Source: a virus. Taken from it: a stretch of 44,008 nt of DNA. The position numbers and the translations under genes are program-made. The stretch is taken from IMG/VR virus record IMGVR_UViG_3300038678_000061, positions 1 to 44,008 of that record; one strand, 5' to 3'. Positions within the stretch are counted from its first letter, which is position 1; each line of letters starts with the position of its first letter. Positions 6,730 to 28,230 of the stretch are shown here, piece by piece. Under the pieces are notes generated by a model. That model was given only the letters and a program-made list of their open reading frames with translations, did no database searches and was not told the origin of the DNA.

Positions 6730-7863
6730 ATGAAAAAGTTATTTGTAATCTTCCTTTTATTAATTCCGATATCTGCCTATTCCCTAGTAGTAAGCGGTGT
6801 TGATGGCGGCGGCAATGCCGATACTCTCGAAGGGCAAAATGGTTCATATTATCTTGATGTTGGAAACGCGACAGGAACCTTACCGCCTTCATCATTTAAT
6901 AATATAAGTGCCGCGACAGTAAACACAACCGGCGATATATTTGCCGACGGCTTTATTGATGGCTTGAAATCAATGGGGTCGCTGTCTGATGATAATGCAG
7001 GGCTAGGAACGCCATATGATATGTTTACAACTTTTACAATATATACATCATACGGTGCAACAAGTTCTTCAAGCAATGTTACGGCTGATGCAAGTGCTGG
7101 AACTATAACGCTTGATTCAGGTGTTCCCGGTGAATTTATGTTTAGTGTAGATGCCTCGGTGACTGGCGTGAATGAGCCTGAATTAACATATGCAGTCTTT
7201 AGAAATGACACAACTGAATTAATATCCTTCGATAGACCTATTTCTGGGGTACACCATCACAGACCAACTTTTCATAGTATTTCAGGTGGCGCAACCTTTG
7301 CGAATCTAACCGCGATTAGATATCTATATGAAGCAGAAGGGGATCAAATACAGATAAATGAAGTAAACGAAACACCGGGCTTTGTATACGATATTACTTT
7401 TAATAGTAATGTGTTATATCCTACTGGCGTAGAGTTTATTAATGCTCTATATGATGGGAATAATAGTGGCGATGAGGTAGAAGTTCGGATTTTCAGCAAT
7501 ACATCATCTGCTTATCATGAAATGCGCGCCGCTGTTGGTGATTTGCCTGATGCGAAAGGGTCGGATGCGTTCAGAAATTACCGAAGAGAATTTGAAGTTC
7601 CAGAACCTATTGCAGATTATGTTAACGTGTCACTGAGAGAGACAAAAATAAAGATAATTCATACTGACCCTGGAAGTGTTGCTCATGACTTATATCTTGA
7701 TAAGTTGCAATTGCATGATGCTCATGGTACATCTGCTTTGAGTTTTAAACATATAGTTGCGCTGGCTGTTGGGGATACTATATCATTAAAAATAAAAAGC
7801 AATCAAGAGGCACCCATTTATGTGAAAAATTTACATTTTCACTTAGGGAAAGAAAGTAATTAA
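6730..7863 (+). CDS. Fibre-like protein with predicted signal peptide
   Basis: A 377-residue protein beginning two bases after the previous stop. Residues 1-18 form a signal peptide (MKK, hydrophobic core, SAYS). Right after it comes 'ADTLEGQNGSYYLD', a motif widely found at the start of phage fibre repeat domains. The rest is beta-rich with a C1q/TNF-like flavour ('GEFMFSVDASV', 'GDTISLKIKS'). The combination of an export signal with a fibre module is odd: either the signal-like stretch is a hydrophobic fibre anchor, or the protein is secreted. Confidence 0.7.
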   Translation: MKKLFVIFLLLIPISAYSLVVSGVDGGGNADTLEGQNGSYYLDVGNATGTLPPSSFNNISAATVNTTGDIFADGFIDGLKSMGSLSDDNAGLGTPYDMFTTFTIYTSYGATSSSSNVTADASAGTITLDSGVPGEFMFSVDASVTGVNEPELTYAVFRNDTTELISFDRPISGVHHHRPTFHSISGGATFANLTAIRYLYEAEGDQIQINEVNETPGFVYDITFNSNVLYPTGVEFINALYDGNNSGDEVEVRIFSNTSSAYHEMRAAVGDLPDAKGSDAFRNYRREFEVPEPIADYVNVSLRETKIKIIHTDPGSVAHDLYLDKLQLHDAHGTSALSFKHIVALAVGDTISLKIKSNQEAPIYVKNLHFHLGKESN

Positions 7864-15380: not shown

Positions 15381-15572
15381 TTATTGTGAGGTGGCGGAAT
15401 AGTAGACGCGACAAATTGGACGATATAATGTTGAGCTAAGGTAGTTGCTTCATCCAATTCTAGATGATTTATGCCAGTACATGCTCATTGCAGGGTGACT
15501 ATACGAGTTTCGATAGGCGCAATCCTAATCGGTAAACTAAAACTACTCGTCAAATCCCTGCCCTCACAATAA
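15381..15572 (+). ncRNA. tRNA-like RNA 1 with interrupted T-loop
   Basis: Ends pair over 11 bases (15381-15391 with 15562-15572). Inside is a tRNA-Leu-type D-arm (TG, GCG stem 15394-15396/15407-15409, loop GAATAGTAGA). A long stem AATTGGA/TCCAATT (15414-15420/15453-15459) replaces the anticodon arm. The T-stem GCAGGG/CCCTGC (15490-15495/15556-15561) has a T-loop (T...TCAAAT) split by an inserted stem ACGAGT/ACTCGT (15503-15508/15545-15550), which itself carries a hairpin CGATAGG...CCTAATCG. A second copy with compensating changes lies at 25793-25972. No canonical anticodon or CCA end is evident. It is not a standard tRNA and I know no matching family. Confidence 0.8.
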
Positions 15573-15588: not shown

Positions 15589-16017
15589 ATGAAAGTCTGC
15601 TTTAAGTGTGGTTTAAGAAAGTCATTGTTTGAATTTTATAAGCACAAAAAAATGACAGACGGGCATTTAGGTAAATGTATTGTTTGCACTAAAGAAGATG
15701 TCTTGGAGCATAGGGTCGCCAATATAGATAAGATCAGAGAATATGACCGGAACAGGGGTAAGTTACCCCATCGTAAAAAACTCAGCACTGAAATAACCAA
15801 AAAGATACGAGAGGATTTACCCCACGTTTATAAAGCTCATACTACTCTCAACAACGCTATCCGTGACGGAAAGATAACTAAGCCATTGGTTTGCTCCATC
15901 TGTAAAAAAGAAAAACATCTCCACGGTCACCACGACGATTATTCAAAGCCTTTAGATGTAGAGTGGATGTGTGCGGTTTGTCATAAAGCTTTTCACAGAG
16001 ATTTAGACAATTTCTAG
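15589..16017 (+). CDS. HNH-type zinc-binding protein
   Basis: A 142-residue protein with an N-terminal CxxC...CxxC zinc ribbon ('CFKCGLRKS...CIVC') and a C-terminal HNH-like core: 'CSICKKEKHLHGHHDDYSKPLDVEWMCAVCHKAFH'. The HGHH and the CxxC pairs are the metal and catalytic positions of small phage HNH proteins. It is probably a nicking or homing-type endonuclease. It follows the tRNA-like RNA by 16 bases with an aaggag ribosome site, so it may share the promoter at 15350. Confidence 0.72.
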   Translation: MKVCFKCGLRKSLFEFYKHKKMTDGHLGKCIVCTKEDVLEHRVANIDKIREYDRNRGKLPHRKKLSTEITKKIREDLPHVYKAHTTLNNAIRDGKITKPLVCSICKKEKHLHGHHDDYSKPLDVEWMCAVCHKAFHRDLDNF

Positions 16018-24812: not shown

Positions 24813-25034
24813 ATGCTCAAGCCAAAAAACATATCAAAGATTAAGTTCAGCCACTCGCTGGGGCATTTCACAAAAGAAGGCTTTGCTATAGAGGCAATGC
24901 CTGGTTGTTATGTAGCTGATGCAAACGGCGAGATAATGACTTTCTCTTTAAAGAGAATATGCCAGGACGTCATAGGGCAGTTTCATGAAGACAAGACAGA
25001 GCTTAGCTTTGTTGAGCCAGAGGTTTTATCGTAA
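24813..25034 (+). CDS. Hypothetical small protein
   Basis: A 73-residue protein, first gene after the promoter at 24740, with ribosome site tagggaga. The sequence ('HFTKEGFAIEAMPGCYVADANGEIMTFSLKRICQDVIGQFH') suggests a small alpha/beta fold, unrecognised. TAATG overlap with the next gene. Confidence 0.58.
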   Translation: MLKPKNISKIKFSHSLGHFTKEGFAIEAMPGCYVADANGEIMTFSLKRICQDVIGQFHEDKTELSFVEPEVLS

Positions 25035-25261
25035 TGCAGTCGGGGGTTCACGATAGTAATGGACAGGAGATTAAAGAGGGCGACAAGGTGCAAATTTCAG
25101 TACAGGCGATGACAGGGAAGCCAGTTGTGAGTATTCAGTCAGTTGGGTTTATCAGAGGAGCCTATCGATATATGTCCGAGGCTGGCAAAATTAATTCATG
25201 TATAGGCGATCTAGGCCATAATTGCACGACTGTAGTTATAGGCAATGAGGAGACATCATGA
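25034..25261 (+). CDS. Hypothetical small beta-rich protein
   Basis: A 75-residue protein with a small SH3-like start ('GVHDSNGQEIKEGDKVQISVQAMTGKPVVSIQSVGFIRGAYRYM'). 'D-x-N-G-x-E-I-K-x-G-D-x-V' is a common opening of YopX/SH3-like phage proteins. It overlaps both neighbours by one to four bases. Confidence 0.6.
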   Translation: MQSGVHDSNGQEIKEGDKVQISVQAMTGKPVVSIQSVGFIRGAYRYMSEAGKINSCIGDLGHNCTTVVIGNEETS

Positions 25262-25792: not shown

Positions 25793-25972
25793 TGAGAGAT
25801 AGTGGCGGAATAGGTAAACGCTGTTTGGGAATCCTTCCTCTGATTGCTGGTATATGTGCCAGAACGTAGAAAAGGAAATTGTAGGGTGACTATACAGGTA
25901 ACAAATTGATAGCTTAATAAATAGGGGACAATAGCTGGCGCCCCATCCTGTCAAATCCCTGCCTATCTCTCA
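25793..25972 (+). ncRNA. tRNA-like RNA 2 with interrupted T-loop
   Basis: Ends pair over 10 bases, TGAGAGATAG/CTATCTCTCA (25793-25802/25963-25972). The D-arm is GCG/CGC (25805-25807/25819-25821) with loop GAATAGGTAAA, including the GG and A of real D-loops. T-stem GTAGGG/CCCTGC (25881-25886/25957-25962). The T-loop is split by an inserted stem ACAGG/CCTGT (25894-25898/25947-25951). The middle has CTGGTA/TGCCAG and TTCCT/AGGAA stems. Compared with RNA 1, D-arm, T-stem and the flanks GGGTGACTATAC and GTCAAATCCCTGC are conserved while outer and inserted stems change on both strands. It lies in the leader of the terminase genes. Confidence 0.8.
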
Positions 25973-25991: not shown

Positions 25992-26516
25992 ATGAGTGAA
26001 GAAGAAAAGATTGATAAGCGTATAGGCAACCGTTTCTGGGAGATGCGAAGCACTCACGGACGCAACCCCATATTCAAAGATTCGGCTCAATTATGGGATG
26101 CCTGTATTCAATATTTCGAATGGGTAGAACAAAACCCCTTGAAGGAACAAAAGCTTTTTAGCTTTCAGGGAGAAACCCACACCGGAACCGTTGACAAAAT
26201 GCGGGCTATGACCATCGGGGGGATGTGTATATTTCTTGATATATGCGAAAAGACTTGGGCAAACTACCGGAATAATAAAGATTTTTTACAAGTCGTTATG
26301 AGAGTTGAGCGAGTCATAAGAGATCAGAAGTTCTCTGGAGCCTCGGCAGACCTCTTGAATGCGAATATTATTGCACGGGACCTCGGTCTCAAAGATATGA
26401 CAAGCATTGACCATTCAGGGGGCATATCCTTTGCAGACGGCCTTAAGAAGATAGGCGAAACAGTAAAGGCGAACCCGGAGCTTGAAAAGAAGCTTGAAGA
26501 TGAATTGACCGATTAA
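25992..26516 (+). CDS. terS: Terminase small subunit
   Basis: A 174-residue protein with the pattern of DNA-packaging small subunits of this phage group: 'GRNPIFKDSAQLWDACIQYFEWVEQNPLKEQKLFSFQGETHTGTVDKMRAMTIGGMCIFLDICEKTWANYRNN' (including the HTH-like central part) and 'FSGASADLLNANIIARDLGLKD'. It recognises phage DNA and starts packaging with the large subunit at 28463; eight or so genes lie between them, which is unusual. The stop codon lies inside the closing stem of the RNA at 26512-26647. Confidence 0.85.
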   Translation: MSEEEKIDKRIGNRFWEMRSTHGRNPIFKDSAQLWDACIQYFEWVEQNPLKEQKLFSFQGETHTGTVDKMRAMTIGGMCIFLDICEKTWANYRNNKDFLQVVMRVERVIRDQKFSGASADLLNANIIARDLGLKDMTSIDHSGGISFADGLKKIGETVKANPELEKKLEDELTD

Positions 26517-26877: not shown

Positions 26878-27088
26878 ACAACTAATCAAAAGACTACGCG
26901 AAGCCTTCAACCTACCTGAAAGCATGGTATCGGATGAAAAGGTTTTGGTGTGCACAAAGGACACTTTAATTCGTGCCGGAGTTGAGTTTAATATGGCGGC
27001 TGAGCCGTTAATTGATGCGCTGAAAGAAGAGTTTCGGCGGGTAACGGCAAAGATGCCAGTAAATTTTATTAGGGGGAGGGTTGACTGA
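26867..27088 (+). CDS. Hypothetical protein
   Basis: A 73-residue protein starting at ATG 26867 within the DUF551 gene's end. Helical ('NKQLIKRLREAFNLPESMVSDEKVLVCTKDTLIRAGVEFNMAAEPLIDALKEEFRRV'). Its stop overlaps the YopX-like gene start. No family recognised. Confidence 0.55.
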   Translation: MPNKQLIKRLREAFNLPESMVSDEKVLVCTKDTLIRAGVEFNMAAEPLIDALKEEFRRVTAKMPVNFIRGRVD

Positions 27089-27453
27089 TGAGAGAGATTA
27101 AGTTTAGGGCTTGGGATGAAGAATTAAAATTTATGGTAAATGAGTATATTTATTTTGTTGGTTTTGATGGGAGTGTTTGGTTTAATAATTGTGATAATAG
27201 CGGAGATGATCTAATTGACCAGACATCTAAGTTGAAGATCATGCAATTCACCGGCCTCAAAGATAAGAACGGCTTGACAGAATTATATGAAGGTGATATT
27301 ATAGATGTAAATGGATTAAAGGTAGGTAATCAATATGAAAACAAAGGACTACTCCAAGACCCAACTAATCTCCTTATACAGGGATTTGGAACATCGACTT
27401 GGGAGGCAACCAACAAAGAAGCAATGGGGAGAGGATGCAAATACTCCGAGTGA
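27088..27453 (+). CDS. YopX-like protein, truncated by HNH gene
   Basis: A 121-residue frame. The first 80 residues are a YopX N-terminus: 'REIKFRAWDEELKFMVNEY...LKIMQFTGLKDKNGLTELYEGDIIDVNG'. After 'EGDIIDVNG' the family pattern stops and the remaining 40 residues are unrelated, because they are out-of-frame reading of the HNH gene that begins at 27335. It therefore looks like a YopX gene broken by a homing-endonuclease insertion or replaced at its 3' end. Confidence 0.75.
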   Translation: MREIKFRAWDEELKFMVNEYIYFVGFDGSVWFNNCDNSGDDLIDQTSKLKIMQFTGLKDKNGLTELYEGDIIDVNGLKVGNQYENKGLLQDPTNLLIQGFGTSTWEATNKEAMGRGCKYSE

Positions 27454-27859
27454 TATGCCCATTAGATGCAATTTTGGAACATGGAATGCTTTTGTATTAG
27501 AAACTGGGGGGGAACCATATAAACCTTATTTGTCTGAATTAGCAAAGAAAAATAAAATACTTGCAAAGAAGGGCAAAAGAAGTAGCAATTGGAAGGGCGG
27601 GAGAATCCTTGATAGATTAGGTTATATTCAAATTTGGATGCCAGATCACCCAAATTCAAAAGGTGGTGGCTATATTCATGAGCATAGACTTATTATGAGC
27701 AATCATCTTGAAAGACCATTAGAACAACAAGAATCAGTACATCATAAAAATGGTATTAAGGATGATAACAGATTAGAGAATCTTGAATTAATGACAAAAA
27801 GGGTGCATCGTGGAATTGTAGAGTGTCCCCATTGTCGTGAGGAGTTTTCGATAAGATGA
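27335..27859 (+). CDS. HNH homing endonuclease
   Basis: A 174-residue protein beginning inside the YopX-like gene. Residues 1-60 form an HNH-associated DNA-binding repeat ('LEHRLGRQPTKKQWGEDANTPSDMPIRCNFGTWNAFVLETGGEP'). The nuclease follows: 'HEHRLIMSNHLERPLEQQESVHHKNGIKDDNRLENLELMTKRVHRG' with the catalytic VHHKNG and N residues, then a CPHC zinc-type end. Free-standing homing enzyme; its position overlapping a truncated YopX gene suggests recent insertion. Confidence 0.88.
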   Translation: MKTKDYSKTQLISLYRDLEHRLGRQPTKKQWGEDANTPSDMPIRCNFGTWNAFVLETGGEPYKPYLSELAKKNKILAKKGKRSSNWKGGRILDRLGYIQIWMPDHPNSKGGGYIHEHRLIMSNHLERPLEQQESVHHKNGIKDDNRLENLELMTKRVHRGIVECPHCREEFSIR

Positions 27860-28230
27860 ATATTAAAATAAGAGTGTGGGGCCATGTAATTGGTGAGGAT
27901 TACAGGATACACGAAAACTGTTCCTTTGATTGTGCAATGATACCAAGAGAATATGGCACAGGCGACATAATTTGTGACCATAAGAATCTTCTTTTTACTG
28001 GATTATTGGATAAACAGGGCAAGGAGTATTACGAAGGCGATATATATAAAAATCCAGAGTGTATCGGCTTGCTAAAGGTTGTTTTTCATAAAGGTTGTTT
28101 TTATGGGGAACAGATTGTCCATGTTGAGGGACTAAGTGGAGAAGATAATTTTGGAAGTATATCTTCAATTTCTCCTAATGAAAGATATGAGATCATCGGC
28201 AATATATACGAGAACCAGGAATTGATTTGA
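27856..28230 (+). CDS. YopX-like protein
   Basis: A 124-residue protein that keeps both ends of the YopX pattern: 'IKIRVWG', then 'LLFTGLLDKQGKEYYEGDIY' and the C-terminal 'YEIIGNIYENQELI'. It overlaps the HNH gene stop by four bases. YopX family members are common in phages and have no established function; this one appears intact, unlike the copy at 27088. Confidence 0.82.
   Translation: MNIKIRVWGHVIGEDYRIHENCSFDCAMIPREYGTGDIICDHKNLLFTGLLDKQGKEYYEGDIYKNPECIGLLKVVFHKGCFYGEQIVHVEGLSGEDNFGSISSISPNERYEIIGNIYENQELI

Follow-up and report, generated by a model that had tools for sequence, protein, structure and literature searches.

Two stretches of a virus sequence of 44,008 nucleotides (IMG/VR record IMGVR_UViG_3300038678_000061, referred to as a whole as the window) can be drawn as tRNA-like RNAs, one shortly before an HNH gene and the other shortly before the gene for the terminase small subunit (terS). 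An earlier note, made from the letters of the window, took them for two diverged copies of an RNA whose structure is under selection, and named a packaging RNA, a decoy for tRNA enzymes, an anti-defence RNA and a regulator of the downstream genes as possible roles. What kind of RNA is this, and what might it do for a phage? The parts of both copies and the adjoining genes are as follows.

15381..15572, + strand: RNA copy 1, whole element (covariance model R1, 107.7 bits, E 3.4e-27; sequence)
15381-15391 / 15562-15572, + strand: copy 1 closing stem (sequence)
15392..15409, + strand: copy 1 TG and D-arm, TGGCGGAATAGTAGACGC (sequence, alignment A1)
15410..15489, + strand: copy 1 variable domain, with a visible AATTGGA.../TCCAATT stem (sequence)
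15490..15507, + strand: copy 1 T-stem 5' strand, TGACTAT and 5' strand of the inserted stem, ACGAG (sequence, covariation)
15508..15545, + strand: copy 1 T-loop insert, a variable domain (domain listing)
15546..15572, + strand: copy 1 CTCGT, CAAAT, CCCTGC and 3' strand of the closing stem, CCTCACAATAA (sequence, covariation)
15589..16017, + strand: HNH/endonuclease VII-like gene, context (PHROG 2340, E 1.4e-37)
25793..25972, + strand: RNA copy 2, whole element (covariance model R1, 104.5 bits, E 2.8e-26; sequence)
25793..25802, + strand: copy 2 closing stem (acceptor-like stalk), 5' strand, TGAGAGATAG, partner 25963-25972 (8 of 8 counted pairs covary family-wide)
25803..25821, + strand: copy 2 TG and D-arm, GCG GAATAGGTAAA CGC (kept in alignment A1, with GCG/CGC and GTG/CAC variants)
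25822..25880, + strand: copy 2 variable domain, replacing the anticodon and variable arms (helix-position enrichment z 8.8 in 90 unrelated domains)
25881..25886, + strand: copy 2 T-stem 5' strand, GTAGGG, partner 25957-25962 (helix 3, 99.7% of cells paired)
25887..25898, + strand: copy 2 TGACTAT (25887-25893) and 5' strand of the inserted stem, ACAGG (25894-25898) (invariant A1 columns; helix 4 covaries)
25899..25946, + strand: copy 2 T-loop insert, an H-type pseudoknot cassette (common to L040, L044, L268 and L269; both stems compensated)
25911-25914 / 25933-25936, + strand: copy 2 cassette stem S1, AGCT (compensatory changes)
25924-25927 / 25941-25944, + strand: copy 2 cassette stem S2, GGGG / CCCC (compensatory changes)
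25947..25962, + strand: copy 2 CCTGT (25947-25951), CAAAT (25952-25956, 3' half of the T-loop) and CCCTGC (25957-25962, T-stem 3' strand) (invariant GTCAAATCC in A1)
25963..25972, + strand: copy 2 closing stem, 3' strand, CTATCTCTCA (sequence; covariation)
25992..26516, + strand: terminase small subunit gene, context (PHROG 606, E 5.5e-53; Pfam GP3_package, 1.5e-23)

Copy 1 ends 16 nt upstream of the HNH/endonuclease VII-like gene and copy 2 about 20 nt upstream of the terS start codon. The R1 scores of the two strongly support their description as diverged copies of one RNA, and every feature on which the earlier comparison rested (D-arm, T-stem, flanks and two stems that differ between the copies and still pair) is present in the sequence. 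Both copies have the same order: a closing stem of 10-11 bp, TG, a D-arm of 3 bp, a variable stretch and a T-stem of 6 bp, whose 5' strand is followed by TGACTAT, the inserted stem, CAAAT, the other T-stem strand and the end of the closing stem. The D-arm of copy 2 is like that of type II tRNAs, with GG in the D-loop, and the last stem of its variable domain would be expected 2 nt ahead of the T-stem. The inserted stem (ACAGG/CCTGT in copy 2, ACGAG/CTCGT in copy 1) is real, but it lies within the T-loop, TG-ACTATACGAG...CTCGT-CAAAT, and encloses a further pseudoknot domain. The earlier account did not anticipate this insertion, nor the pseudoknots, nor the wholly different interiors that nearly identical phages carry, as described below.

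Comparison of homologues strongly supports the claim that the RNA structure is selected. In 55 aligned sequences out of the motif-bearing IMG/VR stretches, 97.8% of the cells of 22 proposed pairs form base pairs, against 76.6% after shuffling, and pairing falls to 38-44% when the partners are slid by 1-3 columns. Two-sided changes occupy 266 cells (71±7.7 in shuffled alignments, 33-55 in slid versions). The covariation score is 0.575 compared with 0.153±0.010 for shuffles, so that homologues covary far above background, the opposite of what the earlier note had said would refute it. The stems of stalk, D-arm, T-arm and insert all covary, and each of the 8 counted pairs of the closing stem varies on both sides. 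Folding energies are weak against shuffled sequences (z -1.61 and -2.03 for the two window copies); single-sequence folding was therefore rejected as proof, and the evidence for structure is comparative. The closing stem has a median length of 19 bp compared with 9 bp for shuffled flanks, by a measure that tolerates single mismatches or bulges. In alignment A1 its sequence is free and its pairing alone is kept.

How widespread is this RNA? Among the viral sequences of IMG/VR, 74 stretches match the split motif pattern GGTGACTATACN{30,60}TCAAATCC, a version for longer inserts adds 28 stretches and one for shorter inserts a few. Nearly all matches of the first viral scan have the same stems around the motif. 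The same motif scan of 85,000 genome assemblies gave 28 stretches of which only about 6 are real. Model R1 gave 109 matches at 100 loci; some 100 of these matches are true copies. Searches of whole records with R1 revealed that many phages carry two or three copies, sometimes in tandem, with several different copies in one phage. In 50,697 phage records, searched with two 30-nt probes and one model check, the RNA was present in one, the uncultured phage MW202647. Since the family is also absent from Rfam 15, where the whole window has no family match at the gathering threshold, it appears to have been overlooked so far; we did not find it in a search of the openly licensed literature either. 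The window copies gave nothing meaningful in Rfam up to E 10.

Several carriers deserve a remark. Two opposite-strand hypothetical proteins, possibly spurious, are annotated across the copy in MW202647.1 (at about 39-39.3 kb; L165:4860-5112). L146 and L152 (G012:4136-4352 and 6885-7101) have identical printed sequence and flanks and lie 2.7 kb apart in the same phage record, the result of a recent duplication or an assembly artefact. On L012, a phage contig with 33 tRNA genes, copies of the element lie inside the tRNA region, and one of them has a very long inner domain. The L091 copy is on a contig binned with a small-genome bacterium (G028, about 1.1 Mb) and has a viral relative, L066; this may be a phage of a small-genome host or a binning error. 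When the MAG contigs L103 and L081 were considered as possible prophages the sole match was a methyltransferase. L002, L007, L050 and L262 come from isolate-derived phages, and searches of phage and plasmid records were empty for L007 and L002.

Throughout the family the RNA consists of a closing stem, a D-arm of the tRNA-Leu/Ser type and a T-arm, the anticodon is absent, and this frame is the most conserved part of the RNA in alignment A1. The likeness to type II tRNAs extends to the D-arm sequence (GCGGAAT.GGTAGACGC), the 3' half of the T-arm (TCAAATCC) and the order acceptor, D, T, acceptor. In contrast to a type II tRNA, the phage RNA has no anticodon arm, has a long stalk and usually has an interrupted T-loop. 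The next-best R1 matches in bacterial assemblies are host tRNA genes with a short length of 83-88 nt, assigned to tRNA-Leu/Ser from this length and their fit to the model rather than by ARAGORN, which again shows the frame to be tRNA-like. Phage G008 carries the same body twice, once with an interrupted T-loop (L113:5399-5562) and once with a canonical T-arm, GCAGGTTCGAATCCTGC (L163). Of five divergent copies compared with Rfam only the uninterrupted L163 reaches the tRNA family, with 34.3 bits and above the threshold. L163 also lacks an anticodon arm, and TAACA/TGTTA and GAGCC/GGCTC cross as a pseudoknot there. Together with the pairing of the D- and T-arms, the Rfam match of this copy and the tRNA genes next in rank strongly support the term tRNA-like.

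The T-loop is a plain TGCAAAT in two further uninterrupted copies (L108:1520 and L004:3029), and these forms together with L163 place the insertion site between what would be T-loop positions 55 and 56. Removal of ACTATACGAG...CTCGT yields the T-loop of L108 and L004, hence the intron-like look of the insert. A T-loop intron, either archaeal bulge-helix-bulge or group I, was rejected as the main reading because the L108 and L004 RNAs also lack an anticodon and the T-stem of L163 differs as well. By sequence and pairing the D- and T-arms of a tRNA elbow are in place, and a contact between them is predicted on these grounds. No CCA end follows the stalk in the two window copies. ARAGORN, which looks for a cloverleaf with a 7-nt anticodon loop, made no tRNA or tmRNA call on them, nor any call on the other interrupted copies tested.

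One variable domain takes the place of the anticodon region and a second usually interrupts the T-loop. These domains have nearly no sequence in common between copies, yet they are structured, and both can often be folded as H-type pseudoknots. Over 90 inner domains there is an enrichment of helices whose 3' strand ends exactly 2 bases ahead of the T-stem (z 8.8), with a 5' helix strand about 4-8 bases past the D-arm (z 3.1-4.9). Crossing helices are present in 46 of 86 inner domains (18.4±3.3 expected) and in 27 of 90 T-loop inserts (14.6±2.7 expected). Because nested helices, like tandem ones, are also in excess, a pseudoknot is not needed in every copy, and the H-type is the usual but not the sole fold. 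The best proof of the pseudoknot is the cassette in the T-loop of copy 2, which recurs in L040, L044, L268 and L269 in unrelated bodies. Among the five members GGGG/CCCC changes to GGAG/CTCC and AGCC/GGCT to AGCT/AGCT, and mean column identity is 94%, unpaired parts included. L269:1040-1145 has a reduced form of the RNA, in which a T-stem and stalk carry this cassette while D-arm and inner domain are missing. The inner domains of L066 and L091 show compensated changes as judged by eye. Extra T-arm-like hairpins with TTCGANT or TTCAATT loops were seen in the inner domains of L020, L101, L003, L023 and L012, and the motif AGGTGGAAGTCCT recurs within variable domains of L029, L024 and L124. The cassettes matched no known antitoxin RNA in Rfam, and a cassette search through plasmids, cultured phages and 145 genomes belonging to one phylum gave no match.

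The interior of the RNA evolves in an unusual way. Relatives with flanking DNA that is 92-100% identical keep frame and stalk but have wholly different inner domains. Between L002 and L265 the upstream 100 nt are 100%, the downstream 100 nt 96% and the D-arm and T-core 100% identical, whereas the inner domains are 46% and the inserts 57% identical; unrelated inner domains average 50.6±6.7%. The interior has been replaced in the same manner at the other element site of this clade (L003, L007 and L263); identity in the upstream 100 nt is 92-98% there, and downstream conservation stops about 20-30 nt past the stem. Since the neighbouring DNA is almost unchanged, such replacement is hard to attribute to drift. 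L264 and L265 have both cassettes alike (99 and 100%) with one flank just 67% identical, so cassettes and flanks move independently. Pairs such as L066/L091, on the other hand, show ordinary drift and not replacement. At the stalk site of L003, L007 and L263 the related L262 (4424-4502, - strand) has a different tRNA-like body with a type I TAGCTCAAGTTGGTAGCA D-arm and a canonical T-arm, called tRNA-??? by ARAGORN. The site seems to accept tRNA-like RNAs of any kind. Cassette exchange may nevertheless simply follow from recombination between short homologous stretches, and difference as such need not be selected.

Do the neighbouring genes tell us what the RNA is for? At about 70 loci no neighbour family recurs and no distance is fixed, and proximity to terS is peculiar to the window phage. 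A scan of the genes next to the RNA with PADLOC revealed no defence genes, and no toxin gene adjoins it. A partner protein common to the carriers was sought and rejected, the best families being common phage proteins such as YopX (11 of 23 carriers) and HNH. YopX-like proteins were found in 0 of 5 RNA-free relatives, a small baseline, and a comparison of loci on the same question (12/81 vs 0/12) includes too few of them to decide. Three YopX/PHROG 98 genes lie around copy 2, at 25034-25261, 27088-27453 and 27856-28230 of the window.

A packaging RNA like phi29 pRNA would suit an element about 20 nt before terS. However, an RNA of that kind is a single one tied to the packaging genes. Here copy 1 precedes an endonuclease gene, terS does not recur as a neighbour, other carriers have their two or three copies elsewhere, relatives that share terS do without the RNA, and Rfam gave no match; the proposal is therefore unsupported and, in our judgement, extremely improbable. 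An antisense or guide RNA, with variable domains that pair with a target as in P4 CI or P1 c4 immunity RNA or in a vrRNA-like guide, would account for hypervariable parts on a constant frame, as in the VIPR vrRNAs (PMC13142463). The domains are structured rather than open, though, and their matches in their own genome equal those in the genomes of other carriers (mean difference 0.007±0.14 nt, n=55); for want of an excess, pairing with the own genome was rejected. Tandem YNNGG repeats as in vrRNAs were not noticed in the listed domains by eye. This explanation is very unlikely. It is also quite improbable that the RNA or its inner domains are a selfish or mobile element spread by homing-like recombination and of no function for the phage. 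Its distribution is patchy, for phages related through terS or the recombination genes (46-60% identity) do not carry it; its sites are scattered, tandem and duplicated copies occur, and genes for Erf, a YqaJ exonuclease and SSB lie directly upstream of copy 1. But no enzyme is commonly linked to it, copies in the same phage have unrelated interiors, unlike transposed copies, and covariation in the stalk means long-term selection on structure.

Two other explanations are closer contenders. The RNA could be a cis element of phage mRNAs (a processing signal, an antiterminator or a translation element) that acts on the operon around it, whichever that is. Counted with plain ORFs of at least 80 aa, some of which are not genes, the nearest downstream ORF shares the strand of the RNA in 75 of 94 cases, as does the nearest upstream one in 63 of 89; many copies, both window copies included, lie 11-50 nt ahead of a start codon. 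Yet the next ORF is on the opposite strand in 19/94 cases, copy B in the G009/G010/G012 clade is followed by a convergent ORF of 316 aa, and cassette replacement and several differing copies per phage would find no explanation. With neighbours so varied, about 20% of them opposite-strand, and relatives that lack the RNA, the suggested regulator of the downstream genes is likewise unsupported. We regard action in cis as unlikely. The leading rival, although it too is rather unlikely, is a tRNA mimic directed against the tRNA machinery of the host (RNase P, the ribosome or enzymes that modify tRNA), in which the constant elbow would be functional and the variable domains spacers required to fold but free in sequence. 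This would agree with the high conservation of the frame, with inner domains that retain fold and helix position but not sequence, and with the existence of a copy with a canonical T-loop. Such spacers should drift gradually, however, and instead they are replaced wholesale between flanks up to 100% identical, while one cassette keeps its sequence across five phages even where it is unpaired. Moreover the T-loop, which enzymes of this kind read, is usually interrupted.

The explanation that we tentatively prefer, without holding it to be probable, is that of a trans-acting phage noncoding RNA which serves as a display scaffold for exchangeable, mostly pseudoknot domains on a tRNA-derived frame. 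Read from the alignments, the RNA has a constant tRNA-derived frame, a long stalk and one or two exchangeable domains; what it does is an inference from these features. A display of pseudoknots in trans would fit best with a constant frame, folded payloads that can be swapped, several of them per phage, and a payload kept across unrelated frames. Stem covariation, kinship with tRNA, the long stalk, interior replacement, the recurring pseudoknot and the fixed helix position all speak for it. Against it stands that about 80% of the copies are co-oriented with the next gene, as expected of a cis element. Among the roles suggested earlier, a decoy or anti-defence RNA would fit cassette replacement best, but since the RNA has no anticodon loop it is unlikely to lure anticodon nucleases.

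Such a scaffold might operate as follows. The RNA would be transcribed within phage transcripts and excised at its stalk of about 20 bp, plausibly by host RNase III. About two helical turns is the usual size of good RNase III substrates, and the length of the stalk thus makes release from polycistronic transcripts plausible. The tRNA-like elbow and the closed ends would then give a stable and compact RNA, like the tRNA scaffold for recombinant RNAs. As the core of the fold is tRNA-derived, the comparison with this scaffold, by means of which foreign RNA is expressed in the laboratory (PMC3753655), is a fair one. The pseudoknot domains would bind, block or decoy specific proteins, most likely defence proteins of the host or of rival phages, in the way that ToxI pseudoknots bind ToxN. 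As targets vary between hosts, recombination across the conserved frame would exchange the domains and leave close relatives with identical frames and different inserts. A broader proposal, that this is a general RNA display platform of phages whose swapped pseudoknot aptamers, each against a different defence protein, form a combinatorial counter-defence arsenal, is more doubtful.

Known RNAs share parts of this picture. Bacteriophage T4 also encodes stable RNAs, rnaC and rnaD (species 1 and 2), for which we know of no function. At the end of T4 rnaC (L166:2909-3047) a canonical T-arm, CCGGGTTCGAATCCCGG, precedes what may be an acceptor strand. Homology was rejected, as R1 found no match in rnaC/rnaD with filters off, and the region is about 90% or more identical in most T4-like relatives found, without the hypervariability seen here. 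The bacterial Y RNA YrlA is a noncoding RNA that carries a tRNA-like module on a stem. The Rfam model of YrlA gave no match even at E 10, and the Ro-binding site in its closing stem has no counterpart in the phage RNA, whose stalk sequence is not conserved. In tmRNA, too, a tRNA-like domain occurs together with pseudoknots, but in the window copies no tag reading frame or CCA end was noticed and neither Rfam nor ARAGORN called a tmRNA. Antitoxins of the ToxI type are small pseudoknot RNAs, and a phage mimic of them is a case of counter-defence: phage TE escaped ToxIN by expression of a pseudo-ToxI RNA that neutralised ToxN (PMC5449768). The phage RNA shares the H-type pseudoknot with them; ToxI, however, is a tandem repeat beside toxN with no tRNA-like frame, and here there are no tandem repeats adjoining a ToxN-family gene. 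VIPR vrRNAs are likewise encoded by phages in several copies with constant and hypervariable parts, but they are YNNGG tandem repeats bound by the Vipr protein (PMC13142463), whereas the variable parts of the present RNA are folded domains and have no linked partner gene. As an analogy only, the noncoding VA RNA of adenovirus is abundant and inhibits a defence protein of the host (PMC6599070); it belongs to a different domain of life and differs in fold and target. In the openly licensed papers we found no described kind of RNA that combines a T-loop insert, pseudoknot domains and cassette exchange, and to our knowledge no one has described folded RNA domains being exchanged as a whole on a tRNA-like frame that stays constant.

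The RNA resembles a viral system for RNA display or decoy, and the swapping of its domains suggests an arms race in which RNA is the weapon. Should the domains indeed bind defence proteins, they would serve as natural aptamers and could lead to defence targets as yet unknown, and the role of tRNA-like stable RNAs of phages, such as species 1 and 2 of T4, would become directly testable.
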